Positions 32,115 through 57,700 of a stretch of DNA of 64,000 nt are shown piece by piece. The notes under the pieces are model-generated. The model was not told the DNA's origin and did not search any database. It saw nothing but the letters and a program-made list of their open reading frames with translations. The stretch comes from Dermatophagoides farinae (taxonomy: Eukaryota; Arthropoda; Arachnida; Sarcoptiformes; Pyroglyphidae). Where the stretch lies: the NCBI RefSeq assembly GCF_024713945.1, contig NC_134677.1:6761001-6825000 (forward strand), written 5' to 3'. How positions within the stretch are numbered: position 1 is the first letter of the stretch; every line of letters begins with the position of its first letter. The translations under genes and the position numbers were made by a program.

Positions 32115-33541
32115 ATGGCTGAAAAACTTGGTGATTTCATGGGAAAATTTGGCGGTAAAACCCCATCCGGTCTTGGCCTTGGTGCCAAATTATTGTTAGC
32201 CGCTGGTGGCCTTGGTTATGCTGCAACTCAATCCGTTTATACAGGTTTGGCTAATTCAATTTTTTTGTTTCGTTGATTTAATTTAAAATTTTATCATTCT
32301 GATTAGTTGATGGTGGTCATCGAGCGATAATTTTCAGCCGTCTAGGTGGTGTTCAACAGGGTGTTTACTCTGAAGGATTGCATTTTCGGTAAATTTTAAA
32401 ATATTAAAAAATTTTATACACAAGCTAAAATAATTTTTTTTAACCAATAGCATTCCTTGGTTTCAATGGCCTATCATTTATGATATTCGATCAAAGCCAC
32501 AACAATATTCTTCACCGACTGGTAGTAAAGATTTGCAGATGGTTAATATTTCATTGCGTGTTCTGGCTCGTCCGGATGCTTTAAAACTTCCACATATATA
32601 TCGGGTTTTGGGCACTGATTTTGATGAACGTGTTTTGCCTTCGATTTGTAATGAAGTTTTGAAAAGTGTTGTGGCCAAATTCAATGCCTCACAATTGATC
32701 ACTCAACGTCAACAAGTATCCCTTCTGGTTCGAAAACAATTAATTGATCGTGCAAAAGATTTCCATATTATTCTGGATGATGTTTCTCTTACCGAATTGA
32801 GTTTTGGAAAAGAATATTCACATGCTGTCGAAGCTAAACAAGTTGCCCAACAAGAAGCTCAACGTGCCCAATTTTTAGTAGAAAAAGCGATACAGGAAAA
32901 ACAACAAAAGATTGTACAAGCTGAGGGTGAAGCCGAAGCCGCTCGAATGATATCCTTTTCACAATTATTACGATTTTTAATGATTTTATTTACTATAATG
33001 GTCTTTAATGATGAACTTTAATGGCATTTTTTCATAGCTCATCTTTCTGATTTGAGGTCTGATATCTTGGCGTCAAAACCGTAGGATTTAATCAATTTTG
33101 ATGCTGTAAAGGGCAGACTACAATTTATCATCAATCTGAACCAAATGGTTCTGTTAGAATGAGTACATATAGTTATTTATGAAGCATTCTAGCTATGGTT
33201 CAATAAGATTGATAAACATTTAGATAGGAAAAAAATTAATCAAAAATGATTCTTTAATTCTTTAGTAATCTGATGACCATGTTTGCAATAGAATCAATCA
33301 AATCATTCCAATTTTTCTTTTTATTTTCCTGAGCTCTATTTTTTTCCGATTTTACTTAGGTGAAGCAATTTCCAAGAATCCTGGTTATCTCAAATTGAGA
33401 AAAATTCGTGCCGCCCAACACATTGCCGAGACGATTTCACAATCACAGAACCGAGTTTATCTGGATGCTCAATCATTGTTATTGAACATTGCAAGCAAAG
33501 ATTTCGATATTAAACCGTCAGAAATTCAGGGCAAAAAATAA
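32115..33541 (+). CDS. PHB2: Prohibitin 2
   Basis: Inner-membrane ring scaffold with PHB1; acts in mitochondrial protein quality control and as a mitophagy receptor. Exons: 32115-32244, 32307-32388, 32451-32949, 33356-33541; 298 residues (human 299). The N-terminal membrane anchor is around [20 protein letters not shown]. The PHB core contains [16 protein letters not shown] and [18 protein letters not shown], followed by the long coiled coil with [20 protein letters not shown] and [11 protein letters not shown], then [20 protein letters not shown] and the C-terminal GKK. The first two introns are 62 nt GT-AG. The third runs from ATATCCTTTT to TTTTAC and is a U12-type AT-AC intron. Only this splice restores the invariant EAARM-LGEA junction and the expected length. 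Confidence 0.97.
32950..33355 (+). other. U12-type AT-AC intron in PHB2
   Basis: The intron starts ATATCCTTTT, an exact match to the minor-spliceosome AT-AC donor consensus, and ends TTTTAC. A possible branch site, TTTTCCTGAGC with A at about 33332, lies about 24 bases before the end; it matches the TTCCTTRAC consensus only in part. At 406 nt it is several times longer than most other introns here. No GT donor near 32950 gives an in-frame PHB2. Confidence 0.85.
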
Positions 33542-33755: not shown

Positions 33756-35803
33756 TTAAATTGGTTTATTATCATCACTGTTACTAACATTACTTTCTTT
33801 GAAATTAAGATCCAAAGATTTTGTCGAAATGAGGGAAGAATATGGCGAAGACTTTTCCAGATTTGATGAATCGGTTAATGAATTTCGTAGATCACAACAT
33901 TCAAGTTTAACAGCTCCTAGGCCACTTCGTCGTAAAATCATTGAATTATTCATTGACCATTTGTTATCTTCGGGTGTGTAGAATTCAACTGTATTCAAAC
34001 TATTGCTGCCATCATTTCCGCCTAGAGCATAAAGTAATCCATTGATTTCGACTAATTCATGAGTGCTTCGTCGATTTTGCATTGATGATATATTCTCCCA
34101 AGCATTTCGCACTGGATCATATCGTTGGGCACTGGACATGCACAATGTTCCATCATTGCCACCGGCAACATAAATCTTGTTATCCATGACAGTTGCACCA
34201 CAACTACTTCGTCGGCTTAACATCGGTGCAACTGCTATCCATTTTCCTTCCTATAGAAACAATAAAGGAAGGATGGATTTTAGCATCAATCTAAATTTAT
34301 AATTCAATAATGTAATACCCTGGGATCATAACGTTCTACTGAAGCCAAATGATTAGCTCCATCAAATCCTCCAACCACGTATAAACTGCCATTCAATGCC
34401 AATAATCTGGTATAACGACGTTTGATTTCCAATGAATTGACCGAAAACCAAGCTGATATTAAAGGATCAAATCGTTCTGCACTGCTCAAACAATTGATTC
34501 CTAGATTTAAAGAAAAAAATTCATTTTTTTATAAAATAATTGTGTATTTGGAAATTACAGCTACCATCATATCCACCGACTGCATAAATAATGTTGTTGA
34601 GTTCGGCAACTCCATGACAACTACGTTTGGTTCCCATTGCAGTAGTATCGGTCCAAACATTTGTTAAAGGGTCAAAAAACTCTGCAGAAGACAATGTCTT
34701 TGATCCATTATTATATCCTCCAATGACATAAATATATCTATGCAAACAAGTAACACCAGCTCGAGATCTTCGTTGATTAGTGGGCGTGAATTCGAGCCAA
34801 GTATTATCCCTAGGATCAAAAAATTCACATTCATTATGAGTGGTAAAAAGTGAACCACCTCCAATCGCAAAAATAAATTCAGTCAAACCATCCGGTTTTC
34901 GATGTTGAGTTCGAGGAGAATTGCCTGAACGATTTTCAAAACTAAGATGATATTTCATGGCTTCAATGACTAAATCTTTAGCTTGATTATTTTCACGAAC
35001 AAATGGTTCTGCTAGTATTTGGTTGATCAAAAAATTTCGTTCAATCAATGGCAATCTAACATGACTTAGAAGGGTGGGAAAATGTATTTCTCTTGATTTA
35101 GAATCATGTTTAATCCATCGAATGGTCGCATCGTAAACAGTTTCTTCGTCGGCCACATTTAAATGATTATCGGAAATTAGACTAATTATGCCTTCATATG
35201 AAAGCGATAAAAATTCTTCAGTCAATGAGACTTCTTGGAAGTTATCGAGAGCATATTTAAGCGAGCAAACTTGAAGTTCCTGACAACTGTGAGTATCAGC
35301 AAATTTTCTTATACCTAAACAATTAGACGGATGCAATTGGTTGAGTAGGAATCGGCAGCATGTTTCACGAATAATCATTAATTGTAATAAACTTGAAGCC
35401 GGTAGTAAGTTCAAAACATTCGCTTCGGTTATGGTCAATTGACCCGTATAGATGAATTCGATCAATAATTTCAATGCGTTCGGATCAATTTCACGGATTT
35501 CAATATGAGACATACTTTTCTCTATCATTTCCGCTAAATATAACTAAATTTAGGATAAGTAAATTTTTTCATTCATTACTTACAGTTAAACATTGCATTG
35601 AAATATGCGCTGTTAGCAGCCAGAACCACTTTATGAGCCAGGATTTTCGTTCCAGCAACTTCCAAAGTGATATCACACAGTTGACCAATCTTTCGCATTT
35701 CGTTCATTGCAGTGAAAATCGTGAATATGTGACTAGTATCTTCAAAGTTCATCTGAGTATTATGGCAAATATTGTCCCTACTTCCGGTCAAGTTTTCCAT
35801 CAT
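33756..35803 (-). CDS. Kelch-like BTB-BACK-Kelch protein, KLHL17/KLHL20 type
   Basis: Probable substrate adaptor of a Cullin-3 ubiquitin ligase. Exons on the minus strand: 35803-35584, 35533-34565, 34500-34319, 34250-33756; 621 residues. The BTB domain lies at about residues 25-140 (CDITLEVAGTKILAHKVVLA, YFNAMFN). BACK follows (CLGIRKFADTHSC ... FLSLSYEGIISLI), then six Kelch repeats with GG doublets (IFAIGGG, YVIGGYN, YAVGGYDG, YVVGGFDG, YVAGGNDG, YALGGNDG). The phrases MLSRRSSCG, CMSSAQR, NRRSTHELVEINGLLYALGG and LRRSGLGAVKLEC are most like KLHL17 (actinfilin) and close to KLHL20/diablo. I cannot decide between those. A Ser-rich tail of about 50 residues follows the last repeat. Introns are 50-70 nt. 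Confidence 0.92.
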
Positions 35804-50255: not shown

Positions 50256-51267
50256 GTGGTTGAAACTACCAACTTGTGGGCCAATAATAATATCATTTGG
50301 ACCATCCAAAAATTTACCATTTGTTTGGTTCTTCGTTTGGTCCATCCGCGCTTTTCATACGAAGCTGGATATTATTGGTAAATAATATTGTACAATATAT
50401 ATGGTGTTTTACCATTCATATTTAAAGATTAAATCGTTATAACATTACAGAAAACACTATAGCTATAATTCTGTATATATGTGTGTCATATGTACATAAG
50501 TGTGTGTATAAATGTGTGTGTGTGTGTGTGTGTACAACAATGATTCAACCCAAGAAAATTATCGTCAACGTAAGTAAGCAATGACTAACATTTCTGATAC
50601 CTGTTGAATATTTTCGGTTCAGTTTTGTTGTTGTTCATTTCATTTTTTCAGTTTACTTGTGGCATTCATTGATTACACTTGGTTTCGTTTATATTACATT
50701 TTATTTGGAATAGATCTGATTTTTTGAATCTAGTTTGAACCGCGTAAATAATCATCATTTTTTTTTTGTTCATTCAATTGTCATCTGGAATAGATTTTCA
50801 TCAGTTTTTCTTGTTTTCTTTTTTTTTTTTTTTTTTGTTCGTACAACGACAATACGATAATTTGAAACAAAACACAAGACCTTTTTAATTTAGAACCTTG
50901 TGTGTGTGTGTGTGCTACTGTTTTTTTTCTGACAAATGTAATCGGCCAATATGTTAACAAAATACTACTGTTTTTTTTATGGATCATTCGTTTTGAATAT
51001 ATCATGTATAAACACCACCACCACATGGTCAGTGTACTAATTTATATGATGACTAAAGTGTTATTGATAATGGTCAACAGTTATACAAGTATTGCCACAT
51101 TCAATTTTGGATTTTTTCTTGTACTAAAAAAAACAAATTCTCAATCCATGAGAAAATTTCAATTCTTGCTTCAGAATTAAAAGTGTAATTTTTCGAAAAA
51201 AAAATCAATCCATTCATCATTCAAGAACTTGATTACTGAATTCGTAAAAATTTTAATCCAGACAAAC
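48788..51267. other. 2.5 kb spacer, no gene seen
   Basis: Microsatellite-rich spacer: (TC)n near 49068-49085, (TG)n near 49583-49597, (AG)n at about 50032-50052, a T-run of 37 at 50218-50254, and (TG)n near 50513-50532. It should hold the mannosidase 3' UTR and the promoter of the sog-like gene. Open frames are composition-driven. Confidence 0.5.
50218..50254. repeat. Poly-T tract, 37 bases
   Basis: Longest homopolymer in the window. No tail-side features (target-site duplication or element body) are visible beside it, so I do not call it the end of a retroposed copy. Its exact length is unreliable in any assembly. Confidence 0.85.
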
Positions 51268-54787: not shown

Positions 54788-57700
54788 ATGGCTAAAAGGG
54801 GTCGAAAAACTGAAACAAGTCCAAAACCTAGAAAGACTACGACGAACAATAAAAAAATCAATGTTACCAAATCAAAAGGCCGTGGAAGAGGTCGTCCATC
54901 AACGACGGCAACAAAAGCGACAAAAATAATTGAAAAAACATTGACGAAATCATCGAATGAATCTGCTAATATATTAACATCACCCATAATAAACACGACC
55001 AAAGCCAACAAATCAAATGTCAAAACTAACAAAACATCCAAAACAGTAACGGAATCAAAATCTAAAAAAACATCGATTAATAATAAAAATGAAGAAAAAC
55101 TTGTTAAAAATGAAATTACCGCTACGAATAATAGAAAAACCTCGATAGCCAATAAATCAAAGCCAAAAAAAGCACAAAAAGTTTCGAAACCATCATCTGC
55201 CACCACTAAACGTGGCAGAAAACCCAAATTGAAAGATGTAGAAAAGGATAAAGATAAGGAATCCAATTCAAAGAAGAAAACAATCCGACCAAAAGCAAAA
55301 CAAGTGTTTGAAGATGATGAAACGGAGGAAGAGGATAATTTGGCTGATGAAAATTATGATGAACCTAAAGATGATGAAATGTTAAACACCATTATCCAAG
55401 TACCTGTAAAAAAAACAAGTATCGAAGCCACCAGTGATATTTCCTTAACATATGGATTTGATAAAATTAGTGGTGAAACATTAAATAAGCTTGAAGAGAA
55501 TCCAATTACACTTGCCAAATCATCATCCTATGATCATCATCATCATCATCATTCTGCTCCTTATCATTTTGATCATTCTAATGAACAAAATTATCTCGGT
55601 TCATTGTACAATAACAATATGAATCTAATTTCATCATCATCCACATCAGCATTTTCATCGGTATCGACAGCTATACAACACAATCAATTCGGTACAAATC
55701 ATTTGACAACATCGTTGCCCAGTTACAATACGACTTCATCTCATTTGCAACATCATGGCCATGCAATGGCTAATGAGATAAACAGTGGGCCAACATCATT
55801 AGCCAATATACCCGTTTCTCCGACGACACCAACAGGCCCTGTTCCACCAACGCCACAACTTCATCATCATGGCCACCAATCATTGCTTTCACCACCACAA
55901 AATCAAAACAATGCGTCAGCAGCAGCAACCCTAGCTAACGATCCTTCTCATGATTTACCAAATGAATTACTACATCAAGGTTGGCGAAAAGTGTGGAGTA
56001 AACGTGAAGGACGATTTTATTTCTATAACAAAAACACAAATCAATCAATCTGGGAAATGCCTAAATTGTCTAACATTTATGATCCAATGACCGATCCATT
56101 GGGAATACAATCAGCTAATAATCCACCAATCAGTCAATTTCAGCCACCAATTCATTCCGATCATTTAGCACCACCCATCTATCAAACGCTTAACCCTGCA
56201 TTCACTCCATTTGCTCAATATAAAAATGATGTGATGAGCAATGACAAGAAGACTATGATCGGACCATTTGATTTCGAAATTGAGCCCAATTGTTACATTT
56301 GGGAGGGATCGTTTTTCTACTATTTTCATCCTCATCCGGACATTGAATTAGCCAGGTATAATTGCGTTCACAAACTACGACAACAATATTGGGAGCTGTG
56401 TCGAACTCGGCAGACAATTGATCCTCCAAAAGATTCTTTTACGAAATGGATTCTCGAACGCAAAATTATCGACAAAGGATGTGATCCTATATTACCATCA
56501 GATTGTATAAATGAGTTATCTAATTCACTATATCGAGAAATCATGAGCGATATTCCAATCAAATTGGTTCGACCTAAATTCAGTGGTGAAGCTCGTAAAC
56601 AATTATCTAAATATGCCGAAGCTGCAAAAAAAATAATCGAAGCACATCCAGTTTCGGGTCAAAGTCGAAAAATTGTCAAATGGAATGTAGAAGATGCATT
56701 CGATTGGATAAGGAAAACATTAAATGCAACATTTGAAGATTATATCGAACGATTGGAACATCTAAAGAGGCAATGTCAACCCCATATCGTCGGTGCGGCT
56801 AAATCATCTGTTGAAGCGATTTGTTTGAAAATATATCATGTTTCGGCTGAATATGCTCGCCGAATAAGAGAAATGAATCTTGAATTGGCTAAAAAAGAAG
56901 ATCTTAGAGGTATATTATTACACTATTATGAATTTGTTTTAATTCTATTTCTATTTCTTATTCACAGAATTTTCCATGAGAATGAACAATAAAAAGATTG
57001 CATGCTATTCAGCTTATCTTATGTATCCTTGTCCAAAACTACCTCCTACACTAATGATCACCGAAAAAGAAAGTGTTATTCTTCGTTGTGGTAAGAATGC
57101 TGAAATTTTACGACTGAACACCAATTATCTGCAAAAATTAGAAATGTTATATTATTTCAATTGTCGCGATGACCGAAAATTTAACTATTTCTTAACACGT
57201 GTTTGGTGTCTTTTAAAACGATATCAGGTGATAAACGATTAAATTCAATTTATTCATAATTTGATTGATTATAAATTGTTACCATTATAGAGTTTTTACG
57301 ACAAGAATGAAGGCCTTCCCTCACAGAATTCTCTTGCATTATCCGTTTTTGGGGCTTTAAACAAACATTTTGGTGTAACTTTTGAATGTTTTGCATCACC
57401 CTTGAATTGTTATTTTCGACAATATTGTTCAATTTTTCCCGATACTGATGGTTATTTTGGTTCAAGAGGGTAAGTTGTTTATAATGTTATTATTGTTAAT
57501 TGATTGATTGATTGTGTTCCGATTTCCTGTTTTTTATTGAATTTTTTTTTGTTATATTGCAGATCGATACTCAACTTTTATCCAATTTCTGGTTCATTCC
57601 AAGCAAATCCTCCTGATTCGGAAGATTTGATCAATGCTACTATAACTCATTTTGAAAAATTATTGGAAAATTCAATGGAACCACTATCTTTTATCATATT

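Follow-up and report, generated by a model that had tools for sequence, protein, structure and literature searches.

The PHB2 Gene and Its Neighbors

The window analyzed here is a 64,000-nucleotide stretch of contig NC_134677.1 of the mite Dermatophagoides farinae. It carries a prohibitin 2 gene (PHB2) on the forward strand, for which we rebuilt from the sequence a model of four coding exons and three introns (62, 62, and 406 nt) encoding a protein of 298 aa. Alignment to human PHB2 places the coding part of exon 1 at 32115–32244, exon 2 at 32307–32388, and exon 3, which ends in GCTCGAATG (A R M), at 32451–32949. Exon 4, stop codon included, occupies 33356–33541 and begins with TTAGGTGAAGCA (L G E A). 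Introns 1 (32245–32306, phase 1) and 2 (32389–32450, phase 2) are of the GT-AG type. The third intron (32950–33355) is in phase 0 after residue 237, and we read it as an AT-AC intron of the U12 type. Residues 1–298 of the spliced product align with residues 1–299 of human PHB2 (PDB 8rrh chain B; E 3.6e-129) with 69% identity, the M|LGEA junction at the third intron being ungapped, and Pfam recognizes a Band 7 domain (PF01145) in this product. An earlier note, prepared from the same DNA, had given these coordinates for the third intron, its ATATCCTTTT donor, its AC end, and its length of 406 nt, as well as a 298-residue protein compared with 299 residues in human. The rebuilt model reproduces all the intron data, and the protein aligns with its human counterpart from end to end. 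The range of 48–90 nt put forward for other introns holds for the four that we checked, namely the 62- and 62-nt introns of PHB2 and two introns of 64 and 68 nt in a neighboring kelch gene.

Upstream of PHB2, on the opposite strand, lies a gene for mitochondrial ribosomal protein L47 (31034–31660, − strand; PF06984, E 2.4e-27), so that two genes for mitochondrial proteins stand head to head. A BTB-BACK-kelch gene (33756–35543, − strand) is convergent with PHB2. Its introns are GT-AG, of 64 nt (34501–34564) and 68 nt (34251–34318); a length of 58 nt for the first one was rejected, as it brings in an in-frame stop, and 64 nt leaves the frame open. Animal PHB2 genes were also sought elsewhere: tblastn found no relative among viral contigs, and the 64 loci retrieved from genome contigs were all bacterial, with best-segment identities of 28–51%, and useless for the position of introns.

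Boundaries of the Third Intron

We listed all joins that keep the reading frame and leave it open, with a donor at 32870–33029, an acceptor up to 33449, and an intron of at least 30 nt. They comprise 62 joins with AT-AC (36), GT-AG (11), or GC-AG (15) termini and 9071 other-ended ones. Alignment to human PHB2 covered the whole set of 62 and, of the other-ended joins, those whose donor falls at 32940–32962 and whose acceptor falls at 33340–33366. Among all the joins aligned, the AT-AC pair 32950/33355 obtains the top score (1023). Three of its other-ended neighbors score 1021, and the protein alone may leave room for a slide of the intron ends by 1–3 bases. Compared with these sliding neighbors, 32950/33355 is the only pair near the junction with recognized termini.

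The best GT-AG join, 33001/33376, scores 969 and replaces seven residues by seventeen (net +10). It is followed by 32927/33359 (score 965), which keeps the frame and deletes nine residues. The latter uses the TTAG acceptor. The earlier statement that no GT donor fits is nearly true, considering what these two joins do to the protein; taken strictly it is nevertheless too strong, because 11 of the joins listed are GT-AG and in frame. Near both ends of the intron, at 32926–32933 and 33359–33366, stands a short direct repeat, GGTGAAGC. This repeat is what enables the in-frame GT-AG splice from 32927 to 33359, which might represent a cryptic pair of major-class sites.

Assignment to the U12 Type

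The donor ATATCCTTTT (32950–32959, + strand) matches /ATATCCTTT, the consensus of the U12-type AT-AC 5′ splice site. By itself, such a donor motif is nothing unusual: the window contains ATATCCTT four times for 3.25 occurrences expected from shuffled sequences, and GTATCCTT, the donor motif of U12 introns of the GT-AG type, once for 1.20 expected. At one given position, the estimated probability is about 2.6e-5 for ATATCCTT and 4.6e-6 for ATATCCTTTT, and the protein pins the position of the donor to within a few bases. The consensus of the branch site is TTCCTTRAY, located about 10–20 nt from the 3′ end. The best match in the last 70 nt of the intron is the weak candidate TTCCTGAGC (33326–33334, + strand), which agrees with this consensus at 7/9 positions and has a G at the usual position of the branch A; the nearest A (33332) precedes the end of the intron by 23 nt. 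The exact motif TCCTTRAY does not occur in the interval that extends 30–2500 nt beyond the PHB2 donor. It is likewise absent from the same interval downstream of the other U12-like donors of the window (8285, 24866, and 57023 on the + strand; 25381 on the − strand), which were set aside. The one at 57023 is an isolated GTATCCTT immediately after a long ORF, about one such occurrence being expected by chance.

The strongest support for the U12-type assignment is provided by published PHB2 genes. An AT-AC intron of the U12 type is reported in PHB2 of fly (CG15081) and human, and a table lists this gene with a 3 for fly and a 5 for human, which we read as intron numbers (Lin et al. 2010, PMC2831892). 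In a fly U6atac mutant, PHB2 is the most severely down-regulated of the genes with a U12 intron (PMC2952598). Inhibition of U4atac or U6atac is also reported to alter splicing around the PHB2 minor intron (PMC8034651). An AT-AC U12-type intron in PHB2, as proposed in the earlier note, is thus the best reading and matches the published fly and human case. The mite intron lies in the same gene and belongs to the same AT-AC subtype; it is the third intron of the gene, as apparently in fly. Based on the gene and the subtype, we take it as orthologous, and thus as an addition to a set already known and not as something new in kind.

Because such a PHB2 intron was already published, finding one here was more to be expected than surprising. 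Its survival in a mite is mildly notable because the Acari are reported to be poor in minor introns. They are described as extremely reduced in this respect, two named mites having apparently lost all such introns (PMC10639083); a single U12 intron is described in Aculops, and three are cited for Tetranychus (PMC7738191). PHB2 would therefore be one of the few minor-intron survivors in mites. The U12 intron of a calcium channel gene in Tetranychus and Aculops, of the AT-AC subtype in the single Aculops case, is likewise a mite survivor, but it resides in a different gene, and no guide RNA is mentioned where it is described (PMC7738191). For the genome from which the window was taken, we infer a working minor spliceosome.

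A Candidate Guide RNA within the Third Intron

The third intron also contains a predicted composite C/D and H/ACA scaRNA resembling U85/U89, with a 283-nt core extending from terminal stem to terminal stem (32998–33280) on the + strand, like all its elements. In the C/D part, the 5′ arm of the terminal stem, AUGGUC (32998–33003), pairs with the 3′ arm, GACCAU (33275–33280). Box C (AUGAUGA, 33008–33014) is located four bases inside this stem and box D (CUGA, 33270–33273) one base inside, and the antisense element UUCUUUAGUAAU (33258–33269) directly precedes box D. The 3′ arm ends 75 nt before the end of the intron, and a distance of about 75 nt to the 3′ splice site is usual for intronic C/D RNAs. 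Two box-C sites of the window combine with a box D and a 6-bp terminal stem, namely the one at 33008 and an ATG repeat.

Between the two boxes lies the H/ACA part. Its 5′ hairpin has an upper part (33069–33105) in which GGCGUCAAAA (33069–33078) pairs with UUUUGAUGCU (33096–33105). This upper stem is directly flanked by the two sides of a candidate pseudouridylation pocket, the left guide AUCUU (33064–33068) and the right guide GUAAAGGGC (33106–33114). A degenerate H box, ACAAUU (33120–33125), one position off ANANNA, begins 14 nt downstream of the first base of the right guide. The 3′ hairpin carries near its top a possible CAB box, UGAG (33160–33163), partly paired in the minimum-energy fold, and is followed by an ACA box (33216–33218). 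The terminal stem and both hairpins appear upon unconstrained folding of 32996–33284; the whole intron folds no better than its shuffles (z −0.39).

A search of the 501 bases at 32900–33400 against Rfam with permissive filters returned snoU85 (RF01296) at 33041–33200, with 18.7 bits and an E value of 0.0056. This score is far below the gathering threshold of 41, indicating an RNA much diverged from U85; since this threshold belongs to the model, we describe the RNA as U85-like without assigning it to RF01296. When the whole window was scanned, snoU85 was matched nowhere but in the third intron at E values up to 2 (E 0.72 for this hit). This hit comes fifth of five in that list, three of the four chance-looking others having lower E values. 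These four (sau-13, mir-297, sR2, and EBv-sisRNA-1) were taken as chance or simple-repeat matches, as were SAM-II, IscS1_thermometer, and a second snoU85 row (8.8 bits, 33239–33278), all from 32900–33400. The weak mir-297 match corresponds to a TG-rich simple repeat at 50475–50540 (+ strand). At the gathering thresholds, Rfam identified no family over the whole window, and ARAGORN no tRNA.

Predicted Pairing with U5 snRNA

We compared both guides with 25 nt of a generic U5 sequence, not one specific to this species, namely the core that surrounds loop I, and allowed any position in this target. The bases before box D form 10 Watson-Crick pairs with this core and place the G at D+5 opposite C45. 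The H/ACA pocket forms 5 + 9 pairs around U46, 13 of them Watson-Crick and one, within the nine pairs of the right guide with loop I, a G-U. The matches of the two guides fall on the adjacent positions C45 and U46, the U5 pair for which U85 is known.

Among 2000 dinucleotide shuffles of the third intron, none reaches the C/D antisense, 29 reach the pocket score, and none reaches both. When the window was cut into 628 tiles of 406 nt, the C/D antisense was reached by two, both overlapping the third intron, and the two guides together by a single one (1/628), over this intron. The pocket score was reached by 8/628 tiles: that of the third intron, one over the end of exon 3 and the 5′ part of the intron, which obtains a score of 15 through a different match, and six elsewhere scoring 13 or 14. 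Because of these eight tiles, the pocket alone is unconvincing, and most of the weight is carried by the C/D antisense.

Comparison with Known Guide RNAs

U85 (RF01296), represented in human by SCARNA10, has the same composite C/D and H/ACA layout and likewise combines guides for C45 and U46 of U5 in one RNA. SCARNA12 corresponds to U89. The fly U85 is named snoRNA:MeU5-C46 (PMC4053861), and a chicken U85/U89 guide targets C45 of U5. The latter sits in intron 3 of NCAPD2, whereas the host of the mite RNA is PHB2 (PMC2653536). Human SCARNA12, also made of C/D and H/ACA parts, derives from a PHB2 intron and guides modification of U46 of U5 (PMC10618143); it resembles the mite candidate in its layout, its target, as predicted for the latter, and its host gene. 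In the literature searched, as far as its accessible parts go, we found no statement of a guide RNA in the PHB2 minor intron, which is no proof of absence. The new part of the present analysis is the putative U85-like RNA inside this intron, which suggests why the intron may persist.

Weighing the Alternatives

We consider it very probable that intron 3 is a minor intron of ancient origin, AT-AC and U12-type, which also hosts a putative scaRNA of the U85/U89 type. Read from the sequence itself are the ends of the intron, the protein junction, the C/D frame, the H/ACA pocket, and the pairing to loop I of the generic U5. One could accept the U12-type intron and regard the RNA-like stretch as a chance match or as a decayed pseudogene without product. 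The weak Rfam score, the ordinary folding energy, the H box defective at one position, and the frequency of the pocket score among the tiles are all in line with such an origin. However, two separate guides address the neighboring residues C45 and U46, each correctly placed with respect to box D or to the hairpin; their co-occurrence in none of the 2000 shuffles speaks against chance, and decay is not expected to spare both. An accidental or degenerate origin of the stretch thus appears improbable.

Removal of the intron by the major spliceosome, either as an AT-AC intron of the U2 type or through a GT-AG pair such as 32927–33359 with its nine-residue in-frame deletion, would account for the lack of a good U12 branch site and could draw on the 11 in-frame GT-AG joins. 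The donor ATATCCTTTT, however, has a C at position +5, where sodium channel genes are described as having a G in their U2-type AT-AC introns (PMC2831892), and the GT-AG joins cost or change residues that mite and human share. We regard processing by the major spliceosome as quite unlikely. A wrong gene model, through an assembly error or a PHB2 pseudogene, is hardly credible in view of the 298 open codons, the three coherent introns, and the 69% identity to the human protein from end to end.

A Probable Minor Intron with a Putative U5 Guide

Under the favored reading, a U12-type intron hosting a U85/U89-like scaRNA, the intron would be spliced out by the U11/U12/U4atac/U6atac.U5 machinery. After debranching of its lariat, trimming as far as the C/D terminal stem would give an RNP of about 283 nt that would go to Cajal bodies. 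Its C/D half would direct 2′-O-methylation of C45 of U5, and its H/ACA half pseudouridylation of U46. Because U5 is common to both spliceosomes, removal of a single minor intron would provide a guide for a component at the core of each. The RNA inside would also explain the length of the intron, which is large beside the four introns checked; the earlier note had this length of 406 nt right and missed the U85-like content.

We tentatively raise a further possibility, which we hold to be less likely than its opposite: the guide RNA may anchor the intron, so that the PHB2 minor intron was kept in a lineage in which nearly all others were lost. A precise loss of the intron would remove the U5 guide too, and the minor intron, along with a pressure for the minor spliceosome, would consequently be retained. 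If so, minor splicing would feed the maturation of U5 for both spliceosomes. Why minor introns are mostly lost in only some lineages is described, in the part of the review available, as an outstanding question (PMC10639083). A minor intron carrying a U5 guide would offer a concrete and testable reason for one survivor and would link minor splicing with U5 modification. If the same minor intron of PHB2 also houses human SCARNA12, the association of guide and intron would go back to early bilaterians. For automated annotation, both the AT-AC junction of this intron and the RNA inside it may be easy to overlook.
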